DNA of 64,000 nt, taken from contig CP002098.1 in assembly GCA_000145985.1 (NCBI GenBank), forward strand, positions 1,654,501-1,718,500, given 5' to 3'. This document shows positions 27,219 to 57,794 of the stretch, one piece after another. This stretch comes from Ignisphaera aggregans DSM 17230. GTDB taxonomy: Archaea > Thermoproteota > Thermoprotei_A > Sulfolobales > Ignisphaeraceae. The notes under the pieces were generated by a model, which ran no database searches, had not been told where the DNA came from, and saw nothing but the letters and a program-made list of their open reading frames with translations. Both the position numbers and the translations under genes were made by a program. Position 1 is the stretch's first letter, and each line of letters opens with the position of its first letter.

Positions 27219-27265
27219 AACATAGTATTAAATAAACCTTCTTCTAAATTCACTCTACCATTCTA

Positions 27266-29323
27266 TTAGTTTTTACTTAATCTCCAACCACATATATCGT
27301 TTGCACATATTATTCCTGAGATTACTACAGCTTCTATTCCACCGCCTGGGAATGTGGATGCACTTGCTAGGTATAGACCCTTTATAGGTGTCTTAAAGTA
27401 TGGTCTTTTTGTATGTATTGATTGGTCAAATGCATATATTGCTCCTTCAGGCATAGATGTATATCTCTCAAATGTTCTAGGTGTTGCTATATCTATTACA
27501 ACTATATGTCTACTTATGTCTGGAATTATCTTCTCAACTTTTCTAATCAGCATCTCTGCTAGTTCTCTCTTCTTCTCTAAATATTCTCTTGTACCTCTCT
27601 CAGGAAATTCATGATAATTTGCAATAGTTAGAATTGTAATACTTGCTTTTCCTCTTGGTGCTAGACTTGGATCAGCATTTGAGTTTATAACAATACTATA
27701 ACCTTCATCTAGATTATTAATTATTGTTGGATAACTAGATAGATCCATATCAATACCTAGGAAAACCATGAATGCTGAGGGTGACATCTTCAAATTCTTA
27801 ATGTATTCGGCATAGTCTTTGGGTAGATGTTTCTCACCTACAAGTTCTAGTAGAGCTGTTTTTGCATTTGTATTAGCAACAACTATTCTACTCCTAAAAA
27901 TCTTATTACCAACCTTCACACCTCTAACTTCCCTATTCTCAATAATTATTTTGTCAACCCTATGCCTTATAAGAACCTTACCGCCATGGGACTCTATATA
28001 GTTTTTCAATGTATCTGCAAATCTCTGTGCACCTCCCTTAGGAAAGTATCCTCCATAGAGATAGTATGAAACAACTGCTGTAAGAGCACTACTAGCAGGT
28101 GTCTCTTCAGGTTTTGTCCCAAGATATCCAAGTAGTGCACAAAGCAATGTTTTTAGATCATCATTAGAGAAAAACTCATCTAACTTCTCTTTGTATGTCT
28201 TATTCATCCAGTCATAGAAATGTGGATGCTCCTTAGGATAATCGAGAAGCTTCTTAGATCCAAAAACCTTTGCTATAAGCTCTGCTGGTAGTGGGACACC
28301 GTAGATAAGATCCTTATAACATTCATCATATGCTTTCATAGCCTCATCAAAAAATGCATAGATATCATCTCTCTCCTCAGGAAACATCTCTGAGAGAATC
28401 CTTATAAATCCCTCTAGATTATCAACATCTATCTCCCTACCCCTAAAGATAAATCTAACTCTATTCCTCACAAACAGCTCATCCCTACTAAGCCCAAGCT
28501 CATTAAGAAGATAGCTAACAGGCCCCCTCTCCCATAATCCACTAACATCCTCAACCCCGGTATTAAAGATAAAACCCCTCCTCATAAACGACGAACAATA
28601 ACCACCAACCTGGTAATGCTGCTCTAGGACTAGAACCTTATATCCTCTCTTCGAAAGCAGAGCACCACAGGTTAAACCACCAATACCAGAGCCAACAATA
28701 ATAACATCATACTCATCTTCACCCTTAGGTCTCTTAGGATCTACACCAACACTCCAGTCATATCTCTTAAAATTTCTTGAAATGAAATATGCAGGAGCTT
28801 TCAAAGGAAATACAATTGAAAATACCATACCGAAAGCTATTAAGATATTTGAAGATATTATATTGAGTGGAGCTTTAAGTAATAGAAAGATTAATGCATT
28901 AGTTATAAAGATCATTGTCCAGACAATAGTAATTATATTATTGATCTTTATAAACATTCTATCCCTCCAATAAACCTCAGGATAATCTCTCTTTGAAACT
29001 TGAAGAGTATAAGGCTGCTTAATAATCAAAGAGAATAACGCCATTAAAAATAGTGCAAAATAGCCAAGAAAACCACTCTCCTCAACAAAGATGTTTAGTC
29101 CAAAGATAAATGTGCCTATAAATGCTATACAGAAATAGATTATGGAGACAATGTCCATAAAATTAAAATACCTTCTATAAATTTGAGAAACTATAAGAAT
29201 TAATGAAATTAGAAAGGATATTGCTATCCCTAGCCCAAAGCCAATACCACATAAGACCCAATATATAATCCATGGAATAAAAGAGATAAATATATAGAGC
29301 ATACCCGGTATCTTTCTAACCAT
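27266..29323 (-). CDS. CrtI/carotenoid-isomerase-type FAD oxidoreductase with N-terminal membrane domain
   Basis: About 685 residues. The first 190 form five to six hydrophobic segments. A phytoene-desaturase-like domain follows: the FAD motif IIVGSGIGGLTCGALLS, then LEQHYQVGGYCSSF, and near the C terminus the LYLASASTFPGGGIE flavin contact. Family members saturate, desaturate or isomerise polyprenyl chains; in archaea related flavoproteins include geranylgeranyl-lipid and carotenoid enzymes. ATG 29323 is chosen because GGAGGAGGT lies just upstream; TTG 29347 is in frame but falls before that site. The membrane domain would hold the enzyme next to a lipid substrate. Which lipid is unknown, and no other carotenoid genes adjoin. 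Confidence 0.75.
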   Translation of the reverse strand: MVRKIPGMLYIFISFIPWIIYWVLCGIGFGLGIAISFLISLILIVSQIYRRYFNFMDIVSIIYFCIAFIGTFIFGLNIFVEESGFLGYFALFLMALFSLIIKQPYTLQVSKRDYPEVYWRDRMFIKINNIITIVWTMIFITNALIFLLLKAPLNIISSNILIAFGMVFSIVFPLKAPAYFISRNFKRYDWSVGVDPKRPKGEDEYDVIIVGSGIGGLTCGALLSKRGYKVLVLEQHYQVGGYCSSFMRRGFIFNTGVEDVSGLWERGPVSYLLNELGLSRDELFVRNRVRFIFRGREIDVDNLEGFIRILSEMFPEERDDIYAFFDEAMKAYDECYKDLIYGVPLPAELIAKVFGSKKLLDYPKEHPHFYDWMNKTYKEKLDEFFSNDDLKTLLCALLGYLGTKPEETPASSALTAVVSYYLYGGYFPKGGAQRFADTLKNYIESHGGKVLIRHRVDKIIIENREVRGVKVGNKIFRSRIVVANTNAKTALLELVGEKHLPKDYAEYIKNLKMSPSAFMVFLGIDMDLSSYPTIINNLDEGYSIVINSNADPSLAPRGKASITILTIANYHEFPERGTREYLEKKRELAEMLIRKVEKIIPDISRHIVVIDIATPRTFERYTSMPEGAIYAFDQSIHTKRPYFKTPIKGLYLASASTFPGGGIEAVVISGIICANDICGWRLSKN

Positions 29324-29442
29324 TCTACATACCTCCTCCAATACCAAAAACTTTAGATAATGAATATTAGGTATTCTCTAAAAATATTTATATCTCTTTA
29401 TTAACTCAATGCAAAGATCATAGAAATGTATATATCATGAGG

Positions 29443-29518
29443 TGCGGCGGCCGGGATTTGAACCCGGGATCTCCGGCTTGGGAGGCCGGCGTCCTAGACC
29501 AGGCTAGACGACCGCCGC
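29443..29518 (-). tRNA. tRNA-Gly (anticodon CCC)
   Basis: A 76-base cloverleaf on the minus strand. The acceptor stem pairs GCGGCGG with CCGCCGC, the anticodon stem pairs CCGGC with GCCGG around loop CTCCCAA, and the T arm is CCGGGTTCAAATCCCGG. Anticodon CCC reads GGG glycine codons. There is no intron, and CCA is not encoded (the discriminator A is followed by CCT). The stems are almost all GC in an AT-rich genome, as expected for a hyperthermophile. A TATA-like CTTAAAAATCC lies about 45 bases upstream. Confidence 0.95.
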
Positions 29519-29765
29519 ACTTCAGATATTTGGCTGTTACAGTTATTTGCTATTTTCCTAGGATTTTTAAGTTTATATTTGTGTTAAACGCTATGTTGAT
29601 TATCTATATAATAATTATTTCTTCATAGGTTTTATTAGGGGTTTAGCTATATATTGAGATAAGAATGCAATGAAGGACAAGTGTGATGGACAAAATAGTG
29701 ATAAGCTAAGACAAATCTATTCTTTCAGCAATTAATTATTTAAAAAGGATAAAAAATGTTTTATG

Positions 29766-31025
29766 TTATTTGGGTTTCTTAATCATATAGCCTATTCCTA
29801 TGCCTACAAGGAGTAGAACTACAGCTACAATACCTACAATTGCCCAGTTTGTTTCTGTGACTGTAGTAGTTAACGTGGTAGTAACTGTTGCTAAGGCTGT
29901 TGTTGTGGTACGTACTGTTGTTGTTTCAATAGATGTTTTTGTAATTGTTGTTGGAATGGTTTCTACCGATGTGGTAGTAACTGTCTGTACTACTGTCTTC
30001 TCCATTGTTGTTGTAATAGTATTTGTTGAAACTATAGTTGTTGGTATAACACTGGTTACAGTGCTTGTAATTGTTGTAGGGACGGTTGTTGTTACTGTAT
30101 TCAATACAACATTGGCTCCTACAAGAAATGATACTTCATAGAGTGACCATTTAAATGTTCCTGCTCCCTGTGGATTTGAATACCATTCAAAGACAAAGTC
30201 TATCATCTGTAGGGTATTTCCTAAAACATCGCTTGGTGTCCAAAGATCTGGTCTTAGCTGTGGCAATATGTTTGCTGCAAGAGATATAAATTCAGGTATA
30301 GGTATACCTACTCTACCACTTTTAATTGGTGCTAGAAGTTCAAAGGTTATTGTTGTATGTGTATCAGCACTTCTATCCAGGTTACCGACATAGACACCAA
30401 ATTCTGCATAGACAAGATTATTATCCACTATGATAGGTGCTGTAACATTTAGTTGAGGTGGTGATGTTAGAGGTACTCCTGGATGTCTATATGGTCTTAC
30501 AATAATCAGTACATCTCCAGCTTTAGTACCACCATCACGTACAGATTTAACAGTCCAGAGGAATAATGTGACAGTTATAGGTAGTGTAGATTCCTCTTCA
30601 TATACAGTGTAATTAGCAAAGAATACAGCATAAGGCAAGTCTGTTACCTTCTTAGGAATTCTATATAGGGGGTGTGCAGGTGGATTGCCACCCCAAATAT
30701 TCTTACCATATCTAATACCCGGCCCTCCCTGAATTCTAACTTCTGTTGGTAGATTAGACCAGCTTCCATAGATATCTGCTCCCATAGGTGTGATCTTCAT
30801 ATCCATGGTTCCCTGCGCTCCTCCGGCCAAGTTCCAGAGATTTGCCATGAACGATGCATAAGGAAGATCAACACTTACCCACCTATTATCGGGGCTAGCA
30901 GTTCTTGTAGCACTAACATCTACGGGAAAGATTTTAGCAAGACCTTGTTCAGAGTTTACAACTGTTATTATTGGTATTAGCAGCAGTGATAGTAATACTA
31001 GAGTCAAGATCCTATATCTTCTCAT
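29766..31025 (-). CDS. Surface-anchored GH12-fold protein lacking the catalytic nucleophile
   Basis: About 419 residues: a signal peptide (1-27), a beta-sandwich domain to about 300, a Thr/Val-rich stalk (about 300-385) and a C-terminal membrane anchor ending in KKPK. The globular domain aligns with the GH12 endoglucanase at 42567-43523: KAGDVLIIVRPYR matches SKGDVELMIWLYR, and a VFEWYSN segment sits where the GH12 acid/base glutamate lies. The nucleophile Glu is replaced by Leu, so normal retaining hydrolysis should be lost. A glucan-binding surface protein working with the importer is the best guess. ATG 31025 follows AGGTGGTG. The gene ends the ABC transporter cluster, 147 bases after dppC-like. 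Confidence 0.7.
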   Translation of the reverse strand: MRRYRILTLVLLSLLLIPIITVVNSEQGLAKIFPVDVSATRTASPDNRWVSVDLPYASFMANLWNLAGGAQGTMDMKITPMGADIYGSWSNLPTEVRIQGGPGIRYGKNIWGGNPPAHPLYRIPKKVTDLPYAVFFANYTVYEEESTLPITVTLFLWTVKSVRDGGTKAGDVLIIVRPYRHPGVPLTSPPQLNVTAPIIVDNNLVYAEFGVYVGNLDRSADTHTTITFELLAPIKSGRVGIPIPEFISLAANILPQLRPDLWTPSDVLGNTLQMIDFVFEWYSNPQGAGTFKWSLYEVSFLVGANVVLNTVTTTVPTTITSTVTSVIPTTIVSTNTITTTMEKTVVQTVTTTSVETIPTTITKTSIETTTVRTTTTALATVTTTLTTTVTETNWAIVGIVAVVLLLVGIGIGYMIKKPK

Positions 31026-31171
31026 CAAGTACACCACCTAACATATAAATGATAGACAGGCTAGGATTTATAAATTTATTGTATAATTAATTCTGATATT
31101 TTGGATCAACAATATGATGAAGTATAAAGAATAAGGCTCTGTATCTAAATAAAAAATAAATTGTTTTAGAT

Positions 31172-32047
31172 CTATCCCCCTCTGAGTCTCGGATTAAACA
31201 GCTCTTCAAGTCCTATAGCTATTAGAGCTAATGATGTTGTTAGTGCTACTAACATTATTCCTGGAGGTAGGAATAGCCACCAAGCACCTGTTACATATGC
31301 TAAGAAGTATTGAGCCCAATACAACATCATTCCTAAAGAGATGTGTTTAACCATACCCTCTGTCGATAGAAGCATTGCTAGCCCGGCTTCACCAGCAATT
31401 CCTGCTGCCATAAATGATGCAAATGCTCCTACAACATAGGGGCCTATACTTGGTAATAGATCCTCAAATACTAAACGAATATCTCCATATCCAGCTATTC
31501 TTGATAGATATACAAAGTCTCTTTCCTTAAGGCTTAATAGCTGTGCTCTAACAGCTCTTGCAAACCATGGCCATGTGAAAGCACCTATGATTATAGCTAT
31601 TAGGTGTGGTCCTCTTAGCTCTACTGGCACATATGATGCTACTAATATAGCTATAAGCCAGTTAGGAATGGAAAGAAATATATTTGTTATACCCATAAGT
31701 ATATCATCGATAAGTCCTCCTTTTAATGCAGCTATAGAACCTATGGTTAGACCTATGCTAAATGCTATTACAGCTGTTATAAATCCTACAAATAACGATA
31801 CTCTTATACTATGTAAAAACTGTGCAAAAACATCTCTACCAAAACCATCAGTACCTAGTGGATGTTCTAATGATGGTGGTAAATTCCGTTCACCTCTTTC
31901 AAATGGATCTTTAGGATATATTAGTGGTCCCACTAAACCCATAAATAATATTACTAAAAATACTGTAAACCCTAGTAGGAAACGTTTATTTGTAAAAATA
32001 GCGTATACAACAGGGCTCTGAAATATACGTTGTATGCTGAAAGCCAT
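31172..32047 (-). CDS. Peptide/oligosaccharide ABC transporter permease, DppC/OppC type
   Basis: 291 residues with six hydrophobic segments. It begins with the short cytoplasmic N terminus and YPKDPFERG/HPLGTDGFGRDVFAQ motif that marks DppC/OppC proteins, and the EAA-type coupling loop appears in LSRIAGYGDIRLVFEDLLP. It forms the heterodimeric membrane pore with the DppB-type protein encoded two bases upstream. In archaea such systems carry di- and oligosaccharides as often as peptides; the beta-glucan enzymes nearby favour cello-oligosaccharides. ATG 32047. Confidence 0.9.
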   Translation of the reverse strand: MAFSIQRIFQSPVVYAIFTNKRFLLGFTVFLVILFMGLVGPLIYPKDPFERGERNLPPSLEHPLGTDGFGRDVFAQFLHSIRVSLFVGFITAVIAFSIGLTIGSIAALKGGLIDDILMGITNIFLSIPNWLIAILVASYVPVELRGPHLIAIIIGAFTWPWFARAVRAQLLSLKERDFVYLSRIAGYGDIRLVFEDLLPSIGPYVVGAFASFMAAGIAGEAGLAMLLSTEGMVKHISLGMMLYWAQYFLAYVTGAWWLFLPPGIMLVALTTSLALIAIGLEELFNPRLRGG

Positions 32048-32049
32048 GG

Positions 32050-33078
32050 CTAACCCCTACCTCCAATTCTCACTCTTGGATCTATAAGAACATATACAAA
32101 GTCTACTAAAAAGTTTGCTAGGAATATTGTAGCTACTGTTATTAAGAATATACCTTGTATCAATGGATAGTCTAGACCACCTATTGCTCTAGATAACATA
32201 TATCCCATACCTGGATAGTTAAATACTACTTCTACTATGAATACTCCGACTATGGAAAATCCTAGCTGTAGAGCTAATCCTGTTACTTGTGGTAGTAATG
32301 AGTTTCTATATGCATATCTAAATAATGTTCTATCTTTGACCCCTATTGTTTCTGCATATAAGAGGTAATCTGATGCTAACTCACTACTAACAAGTATTCT
32401 CATGGATCCCATCCACCCAGCAACATCTACAATATATATAGAGAGAAATGGTAATGCATAATGCCATAGGTAATCAATGATAAATTCTGCTGATAACGAT
32501 GGAGTAACATAGGGTGAATGAATTCCTCCTGTAGGGAACCATCTAAGTCTAAATGCAAATGCAAATAGTAGTAGTATTGCTAACCAAAAATAGGGAATTC
32601 TTGATACAATAAATGAATAGCCAACAACAAATTTCTCAAATAGGCCTCCTCTCTTATATCCAGCATATGCACCTATAATATTACCAGTAAACCATGCAGC
32701 CATAGTAGCAGGTACAACTAGAGCCAATGTCCATGGTAGACTCATCGCTATTACATCTGTAACCTTCCTAGGATACATCTCTGTAGAGATCCCTAGATCT
32801 CCTCTAAAAGCTCTACTCAAAAAGTTTATGTACTGAATATACCAAGGTTTATCAAACTGAAATATATTAATAAGCTCTCTATATACTTGCCCTACCATTT
32901 CAGGTCTATATATATACATAGATATTATTTGTTGCATCTTTGTAGCTAAGGGATTTCCTGGGATAATTCTAGGCAACAGAAATACTATAGTTATAGCAAT
33001 GAAATACGCTACTACAAGTAAAACAATCCTTTTTGCTAGATATATCGCTAATGTTCTATCTATTTTTGGCAATCCCAT
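32050..33078 (-). CDS. Peptide/oligosaccharide ABC transporter permease, DppB/OppB type
   Basis: 342 residues with six hydrophobic segments, an N-terminal TM followed by a large extracytoplasmic loop holding FLPRIIPGNPLA, and the coupling loop with RILVSSELASDYLLYAETIGVKDRTLF, diagnostic of DppB/OppB. It pairs with the DppC-like permease two bases downstream. A clear TATA box 50-60 bases upstream of ATG 33078 indicates its own promoter, so the permease genes may be transcribed separately from the binding-protein gene before them. Confidence 0.9.
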   Translation of the reverse strand: MGLPKIDRTLAIYLAKRIVLLVVAYFIAITIVFLLPRIIPGNPLATKMQQIISMYIYRPEMVGQVYRELINIFQFDKPWYIQYINFLSRAFRGDLGISTEMYPRKVTDVIAMSLPWTLALVVPATMAAWFTGNIIGAYAGYKRGGLFEKFVVGYSFIVSRIPYFWLAILLLFAFAFRLRWFPTGGIHSPYVTPSLSAEFIIDYLWHYALPFLSIYIVDVAGWMGSMRILVSSELASDYLLYAETIGVKDRTLFRYAYRNSLLPQVTGLALQLGFSIVGVFIVEVVFNYPGMGYMLSRAIGGLDYPLIQGIFLITVATIFLANFLVDFVYVLIDPRVRIGGRG

Positions 33079-33126
33079 AGGCTAAACCCCAATATCTCAA
33101 AGCCTAGATTAAAATTACCCTAGTTA

Positions 33127-33140
33127 GGCTTTATATATCT
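33127..33140 (-). promoter_or_regulatory. TATA-type promoter upstream of the dppB-like permease
   Basis: On the minus strand this reads AGATATATAAAGCC, a near-consensus archaeal TATA box, about 50-60 bases before the ATG at 33078. Elsewhere, 33141-33320 shows only AT-rich DNA with no gene. Confidence 0.5.
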
Positions 33141-33320
33141 TCATCAGTTTATTACATCACTACTTACTAATCAACATATACACAATCTCTACAATACAAT
33201 ATCATAAATTCCATTAAACCTACAATAACCATTTAATTCTTAGACACTAAACATTTAAAATGATACAATATATTATAAAAAAGTGTTTTGTTTTTGGTTA
33301 AAAAATGTTTTGGAGTATAT

Positions 33321-35543
33321 TTATCTTCTTTTTATGAAGTATCCTATTGCGAATCCTATTATTAGTAGTACTACTGCTAGTATTATTGTTGTTGTCCATT
33401 CTGTTACTGTTACTGTTGTTGATGTTGTAACTGTTGTTGGAACTGTAACAGTTGTTGCCATAGTTGATGTAGATACAACAGTAGTTGTTATAGTAATGGT
33501 GGTAGCACCGGGAACAGGTGTTGGTGAAGGAGATGGACTTGGACTTGGGCTAGGTGAAGGACTTGGAGATGGAGATGGACTTGGCGAAGGAGATGGACTA
33601 GGAGTAGGTGTGGGTGAAGGACTTGGAGATGTGGTAGGTGTTGGTGGAACCCCCGATTTTATAGATGTTGATACAGCATCATATATACATTTTCTTAAGT
33701 ATTCATTGTATTTAAGCATTGAGAGTAGTGCACCACCCTCTTCAACAGGTGCGTACCACCATGGTTTTTGAATAGGCTCTCCACTTCTAACTATGAAGAA
33801 GAATATTGGTAGAGTGCCCCACCAGGATGGTATCCACCAAGGTCTTTCAGCATTTGGCCATCCATCCCAGTACTTGGGATTATAAACTTGGATATATGGT
33901 GAGTAGTATAGTGGTATTGCTGGTAGATCTTCAAATAGTATCTCCTGTATTCTGAATACAAGTTCTTTCTCATAGTCAGGGAATATCGTAGCTCTCATTA
34001 CTTCTCCAAATATAGCATTTAGAGCATCGTTTGAATATCCCATCCACTTTGCCATATTGCCCCATCCAGAATATAATGCATTTCCATACGAATTCCTTAC
34101 ATGTCCTACTTCATAAGCTCCAGCACTCCAACATATAGTTGCATCAAACTGACCATTTCGAAAACTATCCCACCAAACCCTATAGTCAACAGCTTGAACA
34201 GCTACAGCCATACCTATTTTCTTTAACTCATCAGCGATAAGCGATGCAACTGTGTTTTCTATAACTGACCCTGCTGGGACTAGAATTGTGAACTTTAGTT
34301 TCGTTCCATCAGGTAGCTCCCTAATACCATCACCATCTACATCAATAATACCAGCTCCATCGAGTAATTGCTTAGCCTTATTAAGATCTTGTGTCAGTAG
34401 ACAGTCGGGATTGCCCCAATACTTTTCACATGCTTCTCTATTCACATAGTCTTTATAGACTCCTTCTGCAACAAATCCAACAACTGGTGCTTGTTGTACA
34501 TAGTTCATCAAGCCATACTTTGTTATATCAGACCAAGGTATTGCCCATGCAATAGCCTTTCTAACCTCCACCCTCTGGAATACTGGGTTATTCTGATTTA
34601 GATACAGCCAGAATATAGCTCCTGGTATGAAATATGGTGGTTGGTCTCTCCATAACTTCAAACCATACTTATCCTTTAGTACATCAGCATTAGGTATAAA
34701 TACGCCTCCCAGAGATACATCTACATCACCATTTACTAGAGCTTGTACAGCAACTGTTGGATCCTTATAATACATAAGTACAATGTATCTAGGTTTAGGT
34801 AAACCAAATATGTCTTTACCCCACCAATCATCTATTCTCTCATATATTACCTGTGTCGTATCAGCATAGAATAACTTATATGGACCTGCAACAACCTGTT
34901 TCTTAGGATCGTCATTCAGCCACTCAACCCTCATTCTCTCTCCAAGCTCATCGATGATAGGTTTAAATATGTGTACAGGTACTGGTCTAACAAATAGTAT
35001 ACAGCCTATAGGTCCTCCTATCCAATCCAACATTATTTCCTCTCTTGGAGGTAATTCCTCGCCAGGTGCTCTAGCTATATAGTATTTAACTGTTTTATCA
35101 TCTATTTTTTCATAGTTATATACACACCAATCACCCCATAGACCAGCTCCTACCTGCCTACTCAGCTGATAACCAACAATCAGATCATCAGCTGTTATTG
35201 GTTTACCATCACTCCACTTAGCTTCATCTCTTATGTGAAATGTTATGGTTGCTTCATCTCCATTAAACTCTATCCTATCTATAAGGAATAGAAGCCAATC
35301 CTGTGTTAAGGTATTTTGCAGAGCTGTTGGTGGATATAGTATTTGCCATGCTCCCCACTCCATATTACCACCAACAGCAAAGGGATTCCAGCTCAATGTT
35401 GGTGTACCTATATTGGCTATAACCACTGCCTCTTCTCTTCTATATGCCTGTGCATTTATACTATAGCTAGATACGCTTAGTACTGTTAATAGTACTAATA
35501 GAAGGAATTGTATAGCTAAGATCTTTGATTTAATACCATTCAC
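33321..35543 (-). CDS. Family 5 extracellular solute-binding protein, stalked and membrane-anchored
   Basis: 740 residues. A signal peptide ends near AQA at 33, followed by a DppA/OppA-type SBP_bac_5 domain (about 40-620; note WSDGKPITADD and the lobe motif RKAIAWAIP), a (Pro-Ser)n and Thr-rich stalk (about 635-710) and a C-terminal TM helix ending in KRR. Archaeal family-5 proteins with this stalk bind cellobiose and longer oligosaccharides or peptides. Here the neighbours argue for beta-gluco-oligosaccharides delivered to the DppBC-OppDF complex. GTG 35543 follows GGGTGAA. The stalk shares its terminal design with the GH12-like surface protein. Confidence 0.88.
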   Translation of the reverse strand: MNGIKSKILAIQFLLLVLLTVLSVSSYSINAQAYRREEAVVIANIGTPTLSWNPFAVGGNMEWGAWQILYPPTALQNTLTQDWLLFLIDRIEFNGDEATITFHIRDEAKWSDGKPITADDLIVGYQLSRQVGAGLWGDWCVYNYEKIDDKTVKYYIARAPGEELPPREEIMLDWIGGPIGCILFVRPVPVHIFKPIIDELGERMRVEWLNDDPKKQVVAGPYKLFYADTTQVIYERIDDWWGKDIFGLPKPRYIVLMYYKDPTVAVQALVNGDVDVSLGGVFIPNADVLKDKYGLKLWRDQPPYFIPGAIFWLYLNQNNPVFQRVEVRKAIAWAIPWSDITKYGLMNYVQQAPVVGFVAEGVYKDYVNREACEKYWGNPDCLLTQDLNKAKQLLDGAGIIDVDGDGIRELPDGTKLKFTILVPAGSVIENTVASLIADELKKIGMAVAVQAVDYRVWWDSFRNGQFDATICWSAGAYEVGHVRNSYGNALYSGWGNMAKWMGYSNDALNAIFGEVMRATIFPDYEKELVFRIQEILFEDLPAIPLYYSPYIQVYNPKYWDGWPNAERPWWIPSWWGTLPIFFFIVRSGEPIQKPWWYAPVEEGGALLSMLKYNEYLRKCIYDAVSTSIKSGVPPTPTTSPSPSPTPTPSPSPSPSPSPSPSPSPSPSPSPSPSPTPVPGATTITITTTVVSTSTMATTVTVPTTVTTSTTVTVTEWTTTIILAVVLLIIGFAIGYFIKRR
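33513..33652. repeat. Low-complexity Pro-Ser repeat inside the solute-binding protein gene
   Basis: About 140 bases of hexamer-like GGWGAW/GGACTT units, encoding a Pro-Ser-Pro-Thr stalk on the minus strand. Such stretches recombine easily, so length variation between strains is expected. It is coding, not a CRISPR or non-coding satellite. Confidence 0.85.
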
Positions 35544-35582
35544 ACAAATTCACCCTATTCACAAACTATAATCCTTTAGAAG

Positions 35583-35596
35583 AGTTTAAAAATTTT
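35583..35596 (-). promoter_or_regulatory. TATA-type promoter of the family 5 solute-binding protein gene
   Basis: The minus strand reads AAAATTTTTAAACTC-like sequence 40-50 bases before GTG 35543, in a very AT-rich gap. Binding-protein genes are often the most strongly expressed of such clusters, which would suit a separate promoter. Confidence 0.45.
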
Positions 35597-35627
35597 TATT
35601 TTAATTTATTATATAGATAATGGCTAT

Positions 35628-37076
35628 CTAGCCTATATCTTCACTTAGGTTTCTTAGCTTCTCTAATAATGCTTGTTTTAACTCGGCCCCAAGAGAATCT
35701 GAGGTTATTTCTCCTCTTCTTAGCTTTAGACCTAGTTCACGTGCTTTATCTAATGTAAAGGTAGCTGTTGTTTTTGTTGATGGATCTATAAACTCTAGAG
35801 GTTCACCAAGCTTTCTAAGATAACTATAGTATTCATCTAAATCTATCTTTCCATCTAGATATAGTTTTACAACCTTTTGAACATATCCTCCAATAAGTTC
35901 TCTAACCTCTTTATCTGCAACAAGTAGATCTGCATATAACTGGATAACTGGTCCTGCTTCTCCAAGGGCAAGCTCCATATCTAATGAGGGTAGATAAGCA
36001 TTTTGCTCCGCTATCCTCTTATACATCATCCTTGGACTTGTATTGTTAAATCCTAGTACAGGCATATTAAGCCATCCTGATCTATTGAGTAACATCATAT
36101 CCTGAGCATCGGTTAACCACCATCTTATCAATCTATACATACCATCAACACCATCGCTATCCGCATTTGCTGCAATAGCAATAGGTGTTAGCCATAGACC
36201 TGTCTCATTCTTTGGAAATACTATTCTAAGGTTCTGAGAATCCATGGAATATCCAACATATGCATCCTCAAATGTTAGAACAGTTAATAGAGCATTCCCA
36301 AGAAATACTGTTGACCTTGCCGCTGAACTACTTGTATCTAGTTTAGAGGCTCCACCCATTACTGTAGCAATTATGGTCCATCCCATCTCCCAGCCATATT
36401 TTGACAAGATAACGTTAACTGTTGTAACCATCTGCGCCCTGTTTGATATAGGATATACAGCTACAAGTTTTGCTCCTTTTAGTATTAATGCAAGATATTC
36501 AGGCTTCATTAGATCTGCCCAAGTTTCTGGTATCTGAATATTATATTTCTCAGCATACTTAGCACTTACAAGCCATGGATAGGGTGCCCAGTAGATAGCA
36601 ATCCAGCACAGTTTGCCGTCCTTTGTATAACCCTTAAAAACTTCTTGGATCTGTTCAGCAAGTTTAAGTATCTCAGGATCTTCTATAGGCTTTAAAGCTC
36701 CAACATTACAAAGATATGTTATATTATATCTATTCTGACCAATGAAGCCATCTACAGTGCCATTCAATCCTGCTTTAACCCACTCATTTATATCTATGCT
36801 ATAGACAAAACTTATATTTGTAATGTTGAGCTTCATAGAAGCTGACGGTAATACAACACCAGCCCTAGGCATACCACTCTCAGCAAAGAAATAACGCTTA
36901 AAGTCGTCCCGACCCCACTGACTCCAATCAGTCATAACCGTTATACTAACAGGTTTAAGCTTTTCTTCAGTCTTAACGCCATGCTCAGATGGTTTGATAA
37001 AAATACTATATATAGCATAGCCTGCAATAGCAATAACAATGAGGAGTACAAGTACTATAATAATGCTTCTTTTCAT
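35628..37076 (-). CDS. Family 1-like extracellular solute-binding protein with N-terminal anchor
   Basis: 482 residues. An N-terminal hydrophobic helix (4-26) without a clear cleavage site tethers an extracytoplasmic binding domain. The pattern VSITVMTDWSQWG at the start, PETWADLMKPEYL in the hinge and a late WWLTDAQDMM segment fit the family 1 / Fe(III)- and sugar-binding group, not family 5. It lies within a cluster whose permeases are DppBC-type, and no family-1 permease is visible, so it is an orphan component. It may supply an additional ligand to this importer or serve as a sensor. ATG 37076. Confidence 0.7.
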   Translation of the reverse strand: MKRSIIIVLVLLIVIAIAGYAIYSIFIKPSEHGVKTEEKLKPVSITVMTDWSQWGRDDFKRYFFAESGMPRAGVVLPSASMKLNITNISFVYSIDINEWVKAGLNGTVDGFIGQNRYNITYLCNVGALKPIEDPEILKLAEQIQEVFKGYTKDGKLCWIAIYWAPYPWLVSAKYAEKYNIQIPETWADLMKPEYLALILKGAKLVAVYPISNRAQMVTTVNVILSKYGWEMGWTIIATVMGGASKLDTSSSAARSTVFLGNALLTVLTFEDAYVGYSMDSQNLRIVFPKNETGLWLTPIAIAANADSDGVDGMYRLIRWWLTDAQDMMLLNRSGWLNMPVLGFNNTSPRMMYKRIAEQNAYLPSLDMELALGEAGPVIQLYADLLVADKEVRELIGGYVQKVVKLYLDGKIDLDEYYSYLRKLGEPLEFIDPSTKTTATFTLDKARELGLKLRRGEITSDSLGAELKQALLEKLRNLSEDIG

Positions 37077-37215
37077 ACTGATTCACACAAATTATAGACA
37101 TACCACTGCAATGTTAAAAATTTATATGACGCTTCAGCATTACAATTAACTTATATAACTCTTCATGAAATTAATTCGCTTCATGATGATTCTAATAGCT
37201 TATAATTGTTACAGC

Positions 37216-37944
37216 TTATTGTTTCTGTATACTGGTAATCATATAGATCATGAGGGGGATAATTATCATTGCAAATCCTAACAACATAGTGACCATTGCT
37301 ATCTGCAGACCCCTAAAATCTATTCTATCAATGTAATATAGCACATGGTGCTGAAACTCTTCCGGCCTAAGCTCTAGTGACATGATTGTATATGGAATAT
37401 CCTTGTAATACATTCCTCGAACTACTATGCGTTTCACAAATATATTGGTATTTGATAATGCCTCTAGTTTATAATTGCCTTGGGGTAGCTGACTAAATAC
37501 TAAGATATTTTCGCTCTCTATAGCATTAGAATTATTAATATATTGTGCCCCACCTACCTTTGTACCATTCACATCACTTAGATATAAAACCATATTGATA
37601 GGGCTGACAGATGATGTACCTTCAACTCTAGCTGTTACAAAGAAATATGTTTTATTAGTATTAAAATTAGCAATAGTTTTAAGTATGCCTCCCTCGATAG
37701 TTATATTGTATATCTCTAGAATGTTCTCTGAAACTAGTCTCTGTCCCCCCTCTGGCGATAACACAATCTCCCCATAGTATTTTCTAGGTATGCTTACTAG
37801 ATACTCCTTCTTTATCACATCTACAACATTAGGTGAAAAAGCTATGTAGAGACCACCTATCAGGATTAGAGCTAGACCTATTATCATAAAGACATAGATT
37901 GTTGCAAATATCTTTCTACGATGATGATCCCTTCTTTTAGACAT
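37216..37944 (-). CDS. Hypothetical bitopic membrane protein with extracytoplasmic domain
   Basis: 242 residues, no family recognised. There is a basic N terminus (MSKRRDHHRRK), a TM helix at about 14-35, a beta-rich extracytoplasmic domain with several N-glycosylation-type Asn-x-Ser/Thr sites (about 45-205) and a second TM helix at about 212-236 ending inside. The domain has the feel of a small jelly-roll. It lies between the ATPase genes and the binding-protein genes of the oligosaccharide cluster, on the same strand, with a TATA-like TTTTTAAG in the 66-base gap before it. An accessory role in the transporter is an inference from place only. Confidence 0.6.
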   Translation of the reverse strand: MSKRRDHHRRKIFATIYVFMIIGLALILIGGLYIAFSPNVVDVIKKEYLVSIPRKYYGEIVLSPEGGQRLVSENILEIYNITIEGGILKTIANFNTNKTYFFVTARVEGTSSVSPINMVLYLSDVNGTKVGGAQYINNSNAIESENILVFSQLPQGNYKLEALSNTNIFVKRIVVRGMYYKDIPYTIMSLELRPEEFQHHVLYYIDRIDFRGLQIAMVTMLLGFAMIIIPLMIYMITSIQKQ

Positions 37945-38010
37945 TCAGCATCATCTAATTTAGTGATAACAATAAAGTTTGTTCTGAAGAAAACTTAAAA
38001 ATCTTTTAAT

Positions 38011-38817
38011 CTAGAAAGTCCACCTTCTATATAGAGTTGGTACACTTTCTAAAAGTTGCTTTGTATATTCATGTTTAGGACTCTTTAATAACTCATCTGG
38101 TGTACCTTCATCAACTATCTTACCTCTATACATAACTAGAATTCTATCGGATGCATAGTATGCTAACCCAAGATCATGTGTGATAAACATAACTGAAGTT
38201 TTGTAGTAGTCTCTCATACGTATAAATAGATCTATGATGGCTCCACGTAGCGATGCATCAACCATTGATACTGGTTCGTCAGCTAAAACAAGTTTTGGTT
38301 TTAAGAGCCAGCAACGGGCAATCATTATCCTCTGTCTCTGTCCTCCTGATAGCTGATGCGGATATTTACCCAGTACCTCACCTGGCTGTAAACCTACATA
38401 GGATAGTGCCTCATTAATAAGACTTTTCCCCTCAGATGTATTAGGATCTATATTGAGTAGTTTTAATGCTTGTTTTAACACTCTATCTATTGGATAGAAT
38501 GGATTATAACTTGCGTAGGGATCTTGGAATACTGCATGAACCTCCCTCCAATAATTCTTTACCTCATCAAATTTCCTTATATCCCTCCATATATCTTTGC
38601 CTTCAAATATTATTTTACCAGATGTTGGAGGAAGTATTCTAAGTATCATTTTAGCTGTTGTAGTTTTACCTGAACCAGACTCTCCAACAAGGGATACAAT
38701 TTCACCCTCATTAATATTAAAAGTCACATTATCAACAGCCACTATTCTTCTCCTCCGTACAATCCCTGATTCAAATACCTTAGTTAGATTTTCAACACTT
38801 AATAAGGGCATGGGCAT
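38011..38817 (-). CDS. Oligosaccharide/peptide ABC transporter ATPase, OppF type
   Basis: About 268 residues. Walker A GESGSGKTT, Q-loop VFQDPYASYNP, ABC signature LSGGQRQR, Walker B LVLADEP and the H-loop ITHDLG are intact. QDPYASYNP is the usual OppF/DppF mark. It ends soon after VPTLYRRW, lacking the long C-terminal OppF extension. ATG 38817 is used; GTG 38823 and 38820 and ATG 38811 are in frame, with the AGGTGG ribosome site overlapping the upstream stop, so it is coupled to the OppD gene. It powers import together with OppD. Confidence 0.9.
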   Translation of the reverse strand: MPMPLLSVENLTKVFESGIVRRRRIVAVDNVTFNINEGEIVSLVGESGSGKTTTAKMILRILPPTSGKIIFEGKDIWRDIRKFDEVKNYWREVHAVFQDPYASYNPFYPIDRVLKQALKLLNIDPNTSEGKSLINEALSYVGLQPGEVLGKYPHQLSGGQRQRIMIARCWLLKPKLVLADEPVSMVDASLRGAIIDLFIRMRDYYKTSVMFITHDLGLAYYASDRILVMYRGKIVDEGTPDELLKSPKHEYTKQLLESVPTLYRRWTF

Positions 38818-38823
38818 CACCAC

Positions 38824-39831
38824 CTATTTCTTCATATACAGCCAACATGAAACAAATCTACCTGATTCTACTTGGATTAAGGGAGGTTCCTCTCTTCTGC
38901 ATATATCCATTGCAAAGGGGCATCTAGGATGAAATCTGCAACCTGGTGGAGGGTTGGATAGATCTGGAGGTTGTCCTGGTATATATTTAATACCTCTCTT
39001 CTTAACCTCTTCCTCTGGTGTGAGTACAGATCCTATTAATCCTTCTGAATAGGGATGTAGGGGCTTATTTATTATATCGTCTACTGGGCTATCCTCAACT
39101 ATTTTACCTGCATACATAACTATAATTCTAGTGGCTATCTGTCTAACTGTAGCAATATCATGTGTTATAAATACTAGGCTTTTTATGATCTCTCTATCAA
39201 ATACATCTTTAAATGTCTTGATAACAGCTTTCTGTGTAACTACATCTAAAGCTGATGTAGGCTCATCAACAACTAGAAGTCTGGGATTAAGCAATGTTGA
39301 TATAGCTATTACTGCTCTCTGTCTCATTCCTCCAGAAAGCTCAAATGGATACATATCGATTGCAATCTCAGGAAGTCCTAGTTCTCTAAATCTGTTTCTT
39401 ATAAGCTCTACAACCTTTTCCATCTTTATATCGGGTATATGGCTTCGGACTGCATCATAAACAATCTGTTTGATCTTTAATGTGGGCATCAACGCATTTA
39501 AAGCTGATTGAGGAACCATTGCGATCTCTTTACCCCATATACTACTCTTTATATAGCTTCTATCATATTTCTCAAGATTTACAATACCTTTAGATGTATA
39601 TAACTTGATAGATCCTCCAATAAGCATAAGAGGAGGTCTTATATTCATCATCATAACATTAGCAAGAGTTGATTTCCCACAACCAGACTCACCAACAATA
39701 CCAACAATTTCTCTCTCATAAATCTTTAGTGAAACCCCATCAACAGCTCTTACAATTCTTTTCCAAGGACCTATAACCTGTCTATAATATGCTTTTACAT
39801 CTTCGAGCTCTAATAAGGGTCTAGAGCTCAT
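38824..39831 (-). CDS. Oligosaccharide/peptide ABC transporter ATPase, OppD type
   Basis: About 335 residues from ATG 39831. Walker A GESGCGKST, signature LSGGMRQR, Walker B LLVVDEPTSALD and ITHDIA are intact. The C terminus has the OppD/DppD extension with PGCRFHPRCPFAMDIC, where four cysteines in related proteins bind a [4Fe-4S] cluster. The frame stays open to ATG 39921, giving 30 extra residues that do not resemble family sequence; a GAGTGAT site before 39831 supports the shorter form. It is the first gene of the leftward transport cluster and divergent from the cellobiose phosphorylase gene. Confidence 0.88.
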   Translation of the reverse strand: MSSRPLLELEDVKAYYRQVIGPWKRIVRAVDGVSLKIYEREIVGIVGESGCGKSTLANVMMMNIRPPLMLIGGSIKLYTSKGIVNLEKYDRSYIKSSIWGKEIAMVPQSALNALMPTLKIKQIVYDAVRSHIPDIKMEKVVELIRNRFRELGLPEIAIDMYPFELSGGMRQRAVIAISTLLNPRLLVVDEPTSALDVVTQKAVIKTFKDVFDREIIKSLVFITHDIATVRQIATRIIVMYAGKIVEDSPVDDIINKPLHPYSEGLIGSVLTPEEEVKKRGIKYIPGQPPDLSNPPPGCRFHPRCPFAMDICRREEPPLIQVESGRFVSCWLYMKK

Positions 39832-39986
39832 AAACCTATCACTCTTGCTGACACCTGGATTGCTAAACCTACTTTTCCCTTTACAACTAGAATTAAAAAC
39901 CTTTTTGTATACAAATATCATTGAAGCCTAAAACTTAGGTTATACATCATCTAAACATTATAGAGAGCTGTGTTGGTTGTTATGAT

Positions 39987-40005
39987 CTTTAAACCTTATT
40001 AAACC
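39987..40005 (+). promoter_or_regulatory. TATA-type promoter of the GH94 phosphorylase gene
   Basis: CTTTAAACCTTATTAAACC, 42-60 bases before ATG 40047, holds two overlapping TATA-like boxes in the divergent gap between the importer cluster and the phosphorylase. This gap is the natural place for shared sugar control; I see no clear inverted repeat in it. Confidence 0.4.
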
Positions 40006-40046
40006 CTAATATAGATTTAGGTATTGTAAACCCATGGTCGATATTC

Positions 40047-42527
40047 ATGGACTCGCAATATAGAAGATCCTCCTATGGCTATTTTGATGATAATGCACGG
40101 GAATATGTGATAACAAGACCTGATACACCTACACCGTGGATAAACTATATTGGTCAAGAAGAATATTTTGGTATTGTGTCTAATACTGGTGGAGGATATA
40201 GTTTCTATAGAGATCCTAGGTATAGGCGTATAACAAGGTATAGATATCATAGTATTCCCATTGATCAGCCCGGAAGATATATATACATTAGAGATGCTGA
40301 GACAGGTGAGTACTGGAGTGCAACTTGGCAACCTGTGAAAAAGCCTTTGGACTTCTATGAGTGTAGACATGGTCTTGGCTATACAAAGATAAGGTCTAGG
40401 TATAGGGATATAGAGACAGAGGTAACATACTTTGTACCTCTCAAACAGACCTTTGAAGTTTGGTGGTTTAAGATAAGGAATTTGAGGGATAGAGAAACAG
40501 ATCTACAGTTATTCACATATGTAGAGTTCTGTTTCTGGGATGCTCTAGACGATATGACGAATTTCCAGAGGAATCTAAATATAGCTGAGGTAGAGGTAGA
40601 AGACAATGTTATCTACCACAAAACAGGGTATAGAGAAAGAAGAAACCACTTTGCGTTTTTCGCATCTTCAGAACCTATAGTTGGTTTCGATACAGATAAA
40701 GAGGTCTTCATAGGTCTCTATAGAGGCTACGAAAATCCGATAGTAGTTGAAGAAGGTGTATCGAGGAACAGCATAGTCTATGGAGGACATCCAATAGGTT
40801 CTCACCAGATTAGGCTCAGGTTAAAGCCTGGGGAAGAGAAGGAGATAGTATTCATATTGGGCTATGCAGAAAATCCGCCAGAAGAGAAATTTATAGCTCC
40901 AAATATTATCAATAAGACAAGAGTTAAACAACTACTTAGAGAATGGCTCAACCCCGATAGAGTTAAACAGGCATTTGAAGAACTTAAGAAGTTCTGGGAT
41001 GATACGCTATCATATCTACATGTAGAGACCCCTGATGAGGATATCAATAGAATTGTAAATATATGGAACCAATACCAGATATTCATAACATTCCACTTAG
41101 CTAGAAGTGCCTCTGGCTATGAAACTGGTATAGCTAGGGGCATAGGGTTTAGAGACTCCAACCAAGATATTCTTGGAGCTGTCCATCTACAGCCTCTGTG
41201 GAGCAAAATAAGGGAGAGGATAATAGATTTAGCATCTATCCAGTTCCCAGATGGTGGTACATATCACCAGTTTCAACCTATAACAAAGAGAGGTAACAGA
41301 GAGATTGGCGGTGGATTTAACGACGATCCACTATGGCTAGTAGCATCAACTATAGCATATATAAAGGAAACAGGAGACTTCTCTATACTCTTTGAAAAAG
41401 CTCCCTACGACAATACACCCGGCACAGAGGAGCCACTATATGAACATCTAAAGAAGGCTGTCATGTATATAGATAGAAATCGTGGTCCACATGGACTGCC
41501 ACTTATAGGGCATGCTGATTGGAATGATTGCTTAAACCTAAATGTAATGTCGACAAATCCTGACGAATCTTTTCAAACTGCTCCGGATAGAACAGATGGA
41601 AGAACAGCTGAATCTATATTTATAGCATGTCAATTTGTCTGGGCTGTGAAGGAACTAGCGGAGGTTGCTGAGAGAATTGGTCGTAAAGAGGATGCTGAAT
41701 ACTTTAGGAAGCTGGTCAATGACATGATTGAAAGGGTGAAGAAATATGGATGGGATGGTGAATGGTTCCTAAGAGCATATGATGCCTTTGGACGTAAGAT
41801 TGGTTCTAAGGAGAATGAAGAGGGGAGAATATATATAGAGCCACAGGGAATGTGTATAATGGCTGGTATAGGCTTAGATGATGGAAAAGCTATAAAGGCT
41901 TTAGACTCCGTCAAAAAGTATCTAGCTACAGAACATGGAATAATACTTCACTGGCCACCATACACAAAATACTATGTACATCTCGGTGAGATATCAAGCT
42001 ATCCACCAGGACACAAAGAAAATGCAAGTATATTCTGTCATCCCAATGCATGGATAATCATTGCAGAGGCTATTGCTGGAAGATCTGAACAAGCTTTAGA
42101 TTACTACAAGAGACTTAACCCATCGGCTAGAGAGGCTATTAGCCATATCCATCGAACAGAGCCATATGTATATGCACAAACAATTGCAGGTCCAGCATCA
42201 CCAAGGTTTGGCATGGCTAGAAACTCATGGCTTACAGGAACAGCGTCATGGATGTTTGTAGCTATAACACAGTGGATATTAGGGGTCAGACCAGCATATG
42301 ATGGACTTATGATAGATCCTCGCATACCCAAGGAGTGGTCTGGGTTCAAAATGGTTAGAAGGTTTAGGAATGCTACATATGTTATAGAGGTTAAGAATGA
42401 GGAGCATGTTAATATGGGTGTAAAGCAAATAATAGTTGATGGACAGCCGATAGAGGGGAATATAGTGCCTGCTTTCAATGATGGAAAAGTACATCATGTA
42501 GTAGTTATAATGGGTAAAAAAGAATAG
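40047..42527 (+). CDS. Cellobiose/cello-oligosaccharide phosphorylase, GH94
   Basis: 826 residues with the GH94 arrangement: N-terminal beta-sandwich (1-290), helical linker, (alpha/alpha)6 barrel (330-740) and C-terminal jelly roll. The catalytic acid is Asp494 in HADWNDCLN. Typical GH94 segments are also seen: [10 protein letters not shown] and [11 protein letters not shown] in the N-terminal and barrel regions, and a GQP-containing C-terminal strand. The enzyme splits cellobiose with phosphate to glucose-1-phosphate and glucose, saving ATP. There is no signal peptide. Cellodextrin or laminaribiose phosphorylase activity is possible within the family. Confidence 0.9.
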
Positions 42528-55263: not shown

Positions 55264-55923
55264 ATGATGTTTATTGATACTATCTTGAAAATGAATAGAT
55301 CGTTAATTCTATCATATTTTATGGGATTTAATATTAAATTAGCAAAGAAGATAGTTGAGAGAGGTATAGAAAAAGGGTATAGGTTTTCTGTATATATAGA
55401 TGAAAGTTTAGCTCGTTTATCTTTTGAGAGGCTTTTAAGTGAAACTATTGAGAGAGAGATATGTATAATGCCAGATTGTAGGGATTATGATTATATAGTA
55501 GCTTTAATTTCTAATCCATATAATTTTGTATCTATATCTAATTATCAAAGGTTTATAGCTATTATGTCCCAGAAACCTAGAGGCTTATTAAGTAGAGGTG
55601 TATTTGATGAGGTTTGTAGTACTAAGAAGTCTAATATTTATATCAGTATGATATGTAGACATGGAAACTTCTATTTGTTTAGAGTTGAGGATAATGATAT
55701 TGTTGAAGAACATATCCCTAGAACAATGATATCTATATACAACGATCTAAAAGGTTATGTAACTATGTATGGATCCATAAAAGCTTCTGATTTCTCTAAG
55801 TATATAGCTAGAAAATATGGATATAGTAAGGAAGAGGCTATTAGGATAATTAGAGAGGCAATAAGTTTAGGTATCTTTAGATATAGCTATGGATACCTGT
55901 CTCCAGGAATTGAAATTGAATAG
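55264..55923 (+). CDS. Hypothetical protein with possible C-terminal winged helix
   Basis: 219 residues, no family recognised. The N-terminal two-thirds is mixed alpha/beta. The last 60 residues, with YGSIKASDFSKYIARKYGYSKEEAIRIIREAISLG, look like a winged-helix or MarR/RecX-like helical DNA-binding module. It lies 47 bases upstream of the GlmS gene on the same strand, so the two are probably in one transcript. A regulatory or partner role for amino-sugar synthesis is possible but only inferred. Starts: ATG 55264 or 55267. Confidence 0.55.
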   Translation: MMFIDTILKMNRSLILSYFMGFNIKLAKKIVERGIEKGYRFSVYIDESLARLSFERLLSETIEREICIMPDCRDYDYIVALISNPYNFVSISNYQRFIAIMSQKPRGLLSRGVFDEVCSTKKSNIYISMICRHGNFYLFRVEDNDIVEEHIPRTMISIYNDLKGYVTMYGSIKASDFSKYIARKYGYSKEEAIRIIREAISLGIFRYSYGYLSPGIEIE

Positions 55924-55970
55924 TAAACCTATTTAAGGGTTTATTACTAATTCAAGTATTGGGATAGATC

Positions 55971-57794
55971 TTGGGAGGAATTTTTGGTGCTTTATCTCCA
56001 AAAAAGAGTAATGTTATAGATGTTGTGATTAGCGGTTTAAAGAGATTGGAATATAGAGGCTTCAGTGGAAGTGGTATAGCATTTTTACAAGATAATGATT
56101 TAGTTATATATAAAGATGCTGTTAGAATTGATAAACTTATAGAGCTATATAGATTAGATGAAGTTTCGAGCTGGATTGCTATAGGCCAGACTAGATATGC
56201 TACCCATGGAAAGCCTCATAAGAATAATACTGAGCCTCATACCGATTGTAAGAATTCTCTAGCTATAGTCGGTGATGGAGCTATAGAAAACTATGAGTTT
56301 CTTAAGGATGCCACAATAATACGTGGACACAAAGTTGTATCGAAATGTGATTTTGAGATTATAGTTCATATGATTGAAGATGAATTAGGTAGATATAGAG
56401 ATATTGTTAGAAGTATTAATAGTGTTGTTAAAGATCTTGAAGGATTCTATACATTTGCGCTACTTCTTAGAGACTATAACTCTATTGTTTTATATACATC
56501 GCTTCAACCAATATTTATAGGTATTTCAAAGAATATATATCTATTTTCATCAAATAAAAGTTCTATGTATGGTATAGCAGATAGATATATCGAACTTGGT
56601 GCAAATGAACTTGGAATTATTTCTGAGAATGGAGTTGATGTATATAGTCTCTCTACACAGTCCAGGGTTGTAAAAGAGGAGAGGAATCTCGATGTTGATC
56701 CTAGATTTATAGATAGAGGTGGTTTTCCACATCATATGATTAGAGAGATCTATGAGATACCTTTCTCATTATTGAGAACTATATCATCTGTACAAGATAA
56801 ATATTTATCGCTTAGTGCTAGATTCATTATTGAAGCTAGAAATGTATTTATAATAGGTAATGGAACTAGTCTTCATGCAGGTCTTGTGGCATCATATTAT
56901 CTATCAGAGTTAGCAAATGTTAATCCAATAGTAGTTAGTGCTGCAGAATTTCCTCTCTACTACGTAGATAATATAGCACCGGGATCGCTGGTTATAGCAA
57001 TTTCACAATCTGGAGAGACAGGAGATGTTCTACAATCTGTTTATGAAGCTAAGCTAAGGGGTGCTACAATTCTTGGAATAACCAACTACATTGGTTCTCG
57101 CTTAGCCAATCTATCCAATATATATCTACCGATAGGAGCGGGTCCCGAAATTTCTATACCAGCAACAAAGACATTTACATCAACCTTAATGCTTCTCTAT
57201 ATGCTTGCACTAAAAGCCTCAAGATATAGAGGAAATATTGATGAATCTGAATATAAGGATGGAATTAAATATGCTAAGATCATGGCACAAAGTCTTAATG
57301 AGTATATGCATAGGATAGATAAAGATGTAGCAAAAGTAGTGAAATTCATATCACAGTGTAGAAGTGGCTATATAGTTTCACGAGGAATTACATATCCAAT
57401 AGCATTAGAAGGTGCTTTAAAATTTAAGGAGACAGCCTATGTTCATGCGGAGGGTGTTGAAGCTGGAGAATTTAAACATGGACCCCAATCACTTCTTGAC
57501 GAGAATATCTTTACCATATTCATTATACCTACAGAGAAGATAGCTATAGAACCTACATATAGCTTAATATCAATGGCAAAGGAATATAAAACTAAGACTA
57601 TAGTCATAGGTTATGAAGGAGATCAGAAACTAGATGAACTTGGCGATATACCTGTAATAAAATTACCAGCAGTAAAGAGACATCTAACACCGATAATTGC
57701 AACAATACCACTCCAATTCTTAGCATATAGACTTGGGATAGAGCTTGGAAGACCTATAGATACACCGAGATATCTATCAAAGACTGTTCACTAG
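55971..57794 (+). CDS. glmS: Glucosamine-6-phosphate synthase (GlmS) homologue without the catalytic Cys1
   Basis: 607 residues, full GlmS length: an N-terminal class II glutaminase-like domain (1-240) and two SIS isomerase domains (270-607). The isomerase half is well kept: GNGTSLHAG, AISQSGETGD, GPEISIPATKTFTS, ALEGALKFKETAYVHAEG and the DTPRYLSK tail. The glutaminase half is not: MCGIFG is MGGIFG, so the nucleophilic Cys1 is Gly, and the oxyanion Asn of HNGIIENY is Asp102 in GDGAIENY, while TRYATHG is kept. The TTG start at 55971 is fixed by an in-frame stop six bases before it. It probably uses free ammonia or acts as an isomerase/deaminase. Confidence 0.88.
   Translation: MGGIFGALSPKKSNVIDVVISGLKRLEYRGFSGSGIAFLQDNDLVIYKDAVRIDKLIELYRLDEVSSWIAIGQTRYATHGKPHKNNTEPHTDCKNSLAIVGDGAIENYEFLKDATIIRGHKVVSKCDFEIIVHMIEDELGRYRDIVRSINSVVKDLEGFYTFALLLRDYNSIVLYTSLQPIFIGISKNIYLFSSNKSSMYGIADRYIELGANELGIISENGVDVYSLSTQSRVVKEERNLDVDPRFIDRGGFPHHMIREIYEIPFSLLRTISSVQDKYLSLSARFIIEARNVFIIGNGTSLHAGLVASYYLSELANVNPIVVSAAEFPLYYVDNIAPGSLVIAISQSGETGDVLQSVYEAKLRGATILGITNYIGSRLANLSNIYLPIGAGPEISIPATKTFTSTLMLLYMLALKASRYRGNIDESEYKDGIKYAKIMAQSLNEYMHRIDKDVAKVVKFISQCRSGYIVSRGITYPIALEGALKFKETAYVHAEGVEAGEFKHGPQSLLDENIFTIFIIPTEKIAIEPTYSLISMAKEYKTKTIVIGYEGDQKLDELGDIPVIKLPAVKRHLTPIIATIPLQFLAYRLGIELGRPIDTPRYLSKTVH

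Follow-up and report, generated by a model that had tools for sequence, protein, structure and literature searches.

The genome of Ignisphaera aggregans holds only two full-length GlmS/GlmD-like candidates, a canonical GlmS with its catalytic Cys1, here called GlmS1, and a paralogue in which that residue is missing. We use the name GlmS2 for such Cys1-less paralogues, including the one encoded at 55971-57794 of the window, by which we mean the whole stretch of 64,000 nucleotides analysed (positions 1654501-1718500; the genome is a single contig of 1,875,953 bp, the size published for I. aggregans AQ1.S1; PMC3035270). Our principal conclusion, to which we attach a probability of roughly two in three, is that GlmS2 is a GlmS-derived, glutamine-independent GlcN-6-P deaminase of GlcNAc catabolism, for which we infer reaction, direction and substrate; it would be a GlmS by descent and a GlcN-6-P deaminase by predicted function. 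Without using glutamine, its SIS domain would convert GlcN-6-P to fructose-6-P and NH3, and so would follow NagA (GlcNAc-6-P deacetylase) in the pathway of genomes that have no NagB.

In GlmS, glutamine is hydrolysed at the N-terminal cysteine and the ammonia is channelled to where the sugar binds (PMC7000685). GlmS2 has lost the nucleophile but kept the sugar site, and glutamine should therefore no longer drive it. Its gene and the bases before it read TAG (55965-55967), ATC, then TTG (55971) GGA GGA ATT TTT GGT, with no in-frame start codon between the TAG and 55971; because this in-frame stop six bases upstream fixes the start, glycine stands in place of the nucleophile Cys1, as the initial annotation had proposed. 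The start codons of GlmS2 homologues also occupy the same alignment column as those of canonical GlmS. The accompanying claim, that the HNG segment had become GDG, is equally borne out (residues 101-103), and to these we add a third change, absent from that annotation, in the gate residue Trp74, which is tyrosine here (Table 1). Residues are numbered after mature E. coli GlmS (Cys1 = residue 1), through alignment to the closest solved sequence; in this alignment the I. aggregans protein keeps Arg73, Thr76, His77, Gly99 and Asp123.

Table 1. Features of the glmS2 gene, in window coordinates
Feature	Position	Strand	Basis
GlmS2, GlmS paralogue, 607 aa, glutaminase-like (Ntn) and SIS/isomerase halves	55971..57794	+	TIGR01135, Pfam, AF2
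In-frame TAG stop, sets the N terminus	55965..55967	+	sequence
TTG start codon	55971..55973	+	same column in homologues (ATG, GTG or TTG)
GGA, Gly in place of catalytic Cys1	55974..55976	+	alignment: Gly 61/61 GlmS2, Cys 22/22 GlmS1
Glutaminase-like domain, 240-residue, predicted catalytically dead	55971..56690	+	alignment, AF2
Q-loop motif RYATHG (GlmS: RWATHG), Trp74 to Tyr	56193..56210	+	alignment
GAT, Asp at oxyanion residue Asn98	56274..56276	+	alignment: Asp 60/61, Glu 1/61
Asp aligned with Asp123, which binds the glutamine amino group	56349..56351	+	kept 61/61
SIS/isomerase half	56691..57791	+	Pfam SIS; isomerase-domain structure matches, TMt about 0.9
SQSGET phosphosugar-binding motif	57003..57020	+	S347, Q348, S349, T352 invariant
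K485 ... E488 equivalents (KFKE)	57420..57431	+	invariant
His504 equivalent (ring opening)	57477..57479	+	invariant
Lys603 equivalent (Schiff base with ketose)	57780..57782	+	invariant

The loss of Cys1 is not peculiar to I. aggregans but common to a clade across Thermoproteota. Homologues were gathered from the family, order and phylum into an alignment of 61 GlmS2 rows, this gene included, and 22 canonical paralogues. In it the Cys1 column holds glycine in every GlmS2 row and cysteine in every canonical one; the Asn98 column is aspartate in 60 of the GlmS2 rows and glutamate in the other, and asparagine in all 22 canonical rows. Trp74 is replaced by tyrosine (54/61) or phenylalanine (7/61), and Thr76/His77 are replaced in about half of the GlmS2 rows, mostly as RYASRG, while Arg73, Gly99 and Asp123 are invariant. 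In the isomerase half S347, Q348, S349, T352, K485, E488, H504 and K603 are invariant in all 61 rows. The earlier prediction of a dead glutaminase domain joined to a complete isomerase half is therefore supported by the alignment, and that the oddity arose from a sequencing error, a wrong start or a decaying pseudogene has almost no chance of being right: nothing beyond the strangeness of the sequence speaks for it, and it is refuted by 61 agreeing sequences, conserved starts, intact reading frames and a strongly conserved SIS half.

The two halves of the protein have evolved at different rates. The log-distance ratio of the glutaminase half to the SIS half has a mean of 1.55 in GlmS2 (91 genome pairs) against 1.04 in canonical GlmS. 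The glutaminase half of GlmS2 has thus changed more quickly than its SIS half, so that constraint on it is relaxed. Gly1, Asp98, Arg73, Gly99 and Asp123 are nonetheless fixed, which argues against plain decay of the N-terminal domain. The AlphaFold2 model has an intact two-domain fold (pLDDT 92.6), and its SIS half matches isomerase-domain structures with a TMt of about 0.9. Over the full length the model reaches a TM of only 0.55 against solved GlmS; we read nothing from this about the orientation of the domains or the channel, because a canonical GlmS modelled in the same way is equally poor (0.54-0.55).

In a maximum-likelihood tree of 64 proteins a branch supported at 100/100 separates all 33 sampled GlmS2 rows from the others; the tree was built on all columns, the few catalytic ones included, and was rooted at the midpoint only. 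Profile scores across 398 genomes of the phylum separate the family, with GlmS2 above 750 bits and the rest at 621 and below, except for an early-branching group in family f31, which lies near 600 bits and also begins M-G-G. Its loci L213, L214, L216 and L224 encode GlmS2-like proteins that combine M-G-G with RSATHG and MDG, and there is no nagA in the stretches fetched around them. Among the genomes sampled GlmS2 is confined to Thermoproteota: no Gly1 protein from outside the phylum was seen among the loci examined, and the matches listed from a collection-wide scan are mostly bacterial canonical GlmS. The best explanation of these sequence patterns is that the glutaminase site was inactivated in the ancestor of this clade within Thermoproteota. 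One Omnitrophota contig (L164) encodes a GlmS-like protein that apparently starts MFGIIG, with phenylalanine at Cys1, and this is either real or an assembly error.

Assignment to a family depends on whether homology or catalytic residues are followed. GlmS2 scores 477.8 bits against TIGR01135 (glmS, equivalog, EC 2.6.1.16), above the cut-off of 418.05, its Pfam matches are SIS and GATase_6, and the closest solved sequence and structures are those of E. coli GlmS. It falls far below the cut-offs of the NagB-II model NF046059 (107.6 against 430 bits) and the GlmD model NF041128 (77.3 against 580 bits), both built on other lineages than that of GlmS2, while NagB-I (TIGR00502) has no match in the I. 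aggregans genome, nor in any of the 197 genomes of its order. With GlmS/GFAT it shares the full-length two-domain architecture and identical SIS catalytic residues, but it differs in Gly1, Asp98 and Tyr/Phe74, in forming a separate clade, and in having nagA rather than glmU as a neighbour. NagB-II and GlmD are SIS-fold relatives that deaminate GlcN-6-P, and GlmS2 shares with them a homologous SIS half, the same predicted reaction and the same genomic slot; they are, however, stand-alone SIS proteins, whereas GlmS2 retains the N-terminal glutaminase-like domain and is nearer to GlmS in sequence. NagB-I would serve the same step after NagA, but belongs to another family. Since the defining residues of a glutamine-dependent GlmS are absent (catalytic Cys1, the Asn98 oxyanion residue and the Trp74 gate), GlmS2 should not be filed as such; as its score exceeds the glmS equivalog cut-off, it probably is so annotated. 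A laboratory parallel is the C1A mutant of E. coli GlmS (PDB 3ooj), among the top fold matches of GlmS2, in which the nucleophile was lost by engineering and glutamate and Glc-6-P are bound; the loss in GlmS2, in contrast, is natural, fixed and joined by Asn98Asp and Trp74Tyr.

The sequence alone does not fix the direction of the reaction, which is suggested by gene neighbourhoods. These numbered 39 (38 and the window), a choice made when no function was yet suspected; 36 of them contain GlmS2, and the other three turned out to be canonical. An amino-sugar catabolic context, as expected of NagB-II or GlmD, is found among relatives and not within the window: nagA is present in 16 of the 36 GlmS2 neighbourhoods. 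In 14 it adjoins GlmS2; such pairs include same-strand, convergent and divergent ones, and the two genes are 3 to 278 bp apart unless their ORF calls overlap. Three examples of NagA from these loci pass the TIGR00221 cut-off. Other linked genes encode a NagK-like kinase (99 bits, below cut-off), AnmK, a PBP4B-like beta-lactamase-fold protein, a GH84 NAGidase, sugar isomerase-domain proteins and the PTS components EI, HPr (recognised by eye only), EIIB and EIIC/EIID. Because GlmS2 stands beside NagA in genomes without NagB, we infer that GlcN-6-P deamination is its simplest role. Two loci of family f4 (L219 and L222) carry an archaeal cluster of AnmK, PBP4B-like protein, GH84 NAGidase, an SIS protein, NagA and GlmS2, an arrangement suggestive of scavenging of bacterial cell-wall sugars.

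Co-occurrence points the same way. By profile matches across the 197 genomes of the order, 54 have both GlmS2 and NagA, 22 GlmS2 only, 13 NagA only and 108 neither, and nearly all of the NagA matches pass TIGR00221; by genus the figures are 22, 3, 4 and 45 (Fisher p 7e-12, a value which is only indicative because genera are not independent). NagA-bearing genera without GlmS2 mostly have a stand-alone SIS deaminase-like protein instead: such a protein, of 320-420 aa and with a weak GlmD match, occurs in 7 of the 13 NagA-only genomes (G020, G030, G040, G049, G062, G178 and G179), and the one in the Sulfolobaceae-like G062, only 3 bp away from nagA, reaches 153 bits against NagB-II. This exclusion is not strict, since such a protein is also present in some GlmS2 genomes. 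Several other genomes of the Ignisphaera family encode a stand-alone SIS protein as well, about 356 aa long (L029, L030 and L031).

Some observations count against the deaminase: the low scores with the NagB-II and GlmD models, although these were built on other lineages; three GlmS2-bearing genera (g16, g40 and g49) with no NagA match; and the distance between GlmS2 and nagA in I. aggregans itself. In its favour, this species does have a NagA (278 bits, cut-off 226), encoded at 359.6-360.7 kb and adjoining a GH20-domain gene, and one ROK kinase elsewhere in the genome, but neither NagB-I nor a stand-alone GlmD-like protein. It has no NagK-like kinase. The sole match resembling PTS EI, a 954-aa frame far below cut-off, was set aside as probably a PEP synthase.

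From the loss of Cys1 the initial annotation had predicted that amino sugars are made here with nitrogen from another source, and this part of it is not supported. A second, fully canonical GlmS (MCGIIG, RWATHG, HNG) is encoded at about 435.5-437.4 kb of the same genome, followed by a GlmU-like gene (TIGR03992, 176 bits, below the cut-off of 292), and with these two present no other supply of nitrogen is needed for making amino sugars. Most GlmS2 genomes likewise have a canonical GlmS. A GlmU-like neighbour was found at 8 of 17 canonical GlmS1 loci against 0 of 45 GlmS2 loci, a comparison in which the flanks were mostly longer in the GlmS2 loci and so favoured more matches on the GlmS2 side. 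Among the activities that had been listed, the deaminase is the one supported by the genomic context, through linkage and co-occurrence with nagA. That GlmS2 is an ammonia-dependent GlcN-6-P synthase, its SIS domain aminating fructose-6-P with free ammonium in peptide fermenters, strikes us as improbable. The isomerase residues are intact, free ammonium would be plausible in a fermenter, and the synthase reaction is chemically the reverse of deamination, so that a purified enzyme may show both; against this, the genome already has a canonical GlmS with its GlmU-like neighbour, and the genes around GlmS2 (nagA, NAGidase, AnmK) belong to catabolism.

The substrate is a separate matter. Ala400, near the sugar site, is replaced by proline in all 61 GlmS2 rows, a change specific to GlmS2, and together with those neighbourhoods that lack nagA and those in which a sorbose-family PTS EIIB is linked, this leaves a small chance that the SIS half uses a different amino sugar phosphate, for instance GalN-6-P, or some other phosphosugar, in the manner of AgaS-like or deglycase enzymes. 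The linkage to NagA and GH84/AnmK points instead to the GlcNAc series, and GlmS2 has kept the residues with which GlmS binds the phosphosugar and catalyses its reaction. We take ST2245 to be the GlcN-6-P/GalN-6-P epimerase of Sulfurisphaera tokodaii, and one genome in the comparison to be that of this species; there GlmS2 lies at 2.554 Mb and the canonical GlmS at 2.186 Mb, and judged by these positions GlmS2 is probably not ST2245.

The fixed residues of the N-terminal half, namely the invariant Arg73, Gly99 and Asp123 and a Gly1 and Asp98 that do not drift, might also suggest that GlmS2 is a regulatory pseudoenzyme, or a partner of canonical GlmS, with Arg73, Gly99 and Asp123 as its binding residues for glutamine or glutamate. 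We consider this very unlikely: catalytic residues as invariant as those of the SIS half imply that the protein works on sugar phosphates, roughly half of the family has lost Thr76 and His77, and no linkage of canonical glmS to GlmS2 was seen in the loci examined. For a deaminase, it is conceivable that the retained domain lets ammonia out or senses an amino acid. The fuller proposal is that it is no relic and has been re-purposed, either to lead ammonia away from the SIS site through the former GlmS channel, in reverse, with Asp98 receiving ammonium at the place of the former glutamine cleavage, or to bind an amino acid that adjusts deamination to the nitrogen status. This we regard as tentative and rather doubtful; if true, it would represent the glutamine amidotransferase architecture run backwards.

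GlmS2 is a likely filler of a missing GlcN-6-P deamination step in the catabolism of GlcNAc and cell-wall sugars in many Thermoproteota. The corresponding annotation error would be systematic, and metabolic models that rely on it would credit these organisms with two amino-sugar synthases and leave out the deaminase. The family would also provide a natural case of a glutamine amidotransferase without glutamine hydrolysis, in which a predicted dead domain is kept and specific residues in it are fixed. No earlier description of the subfamily was found in the open-access literature searched, which misses most subscription papers.

Within the window, a 219-aa ORF with no Pfam match lies directly upstream of GlmS2 (55264-55923). 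About 13-31 kb from GlmS2, at 25017-42527, are genes for a GH3 glycosidase, an ABC-type peptide/oligosaccharide transporter and a GH94 phosphorylase, possibly a region for oligosaccharide use.
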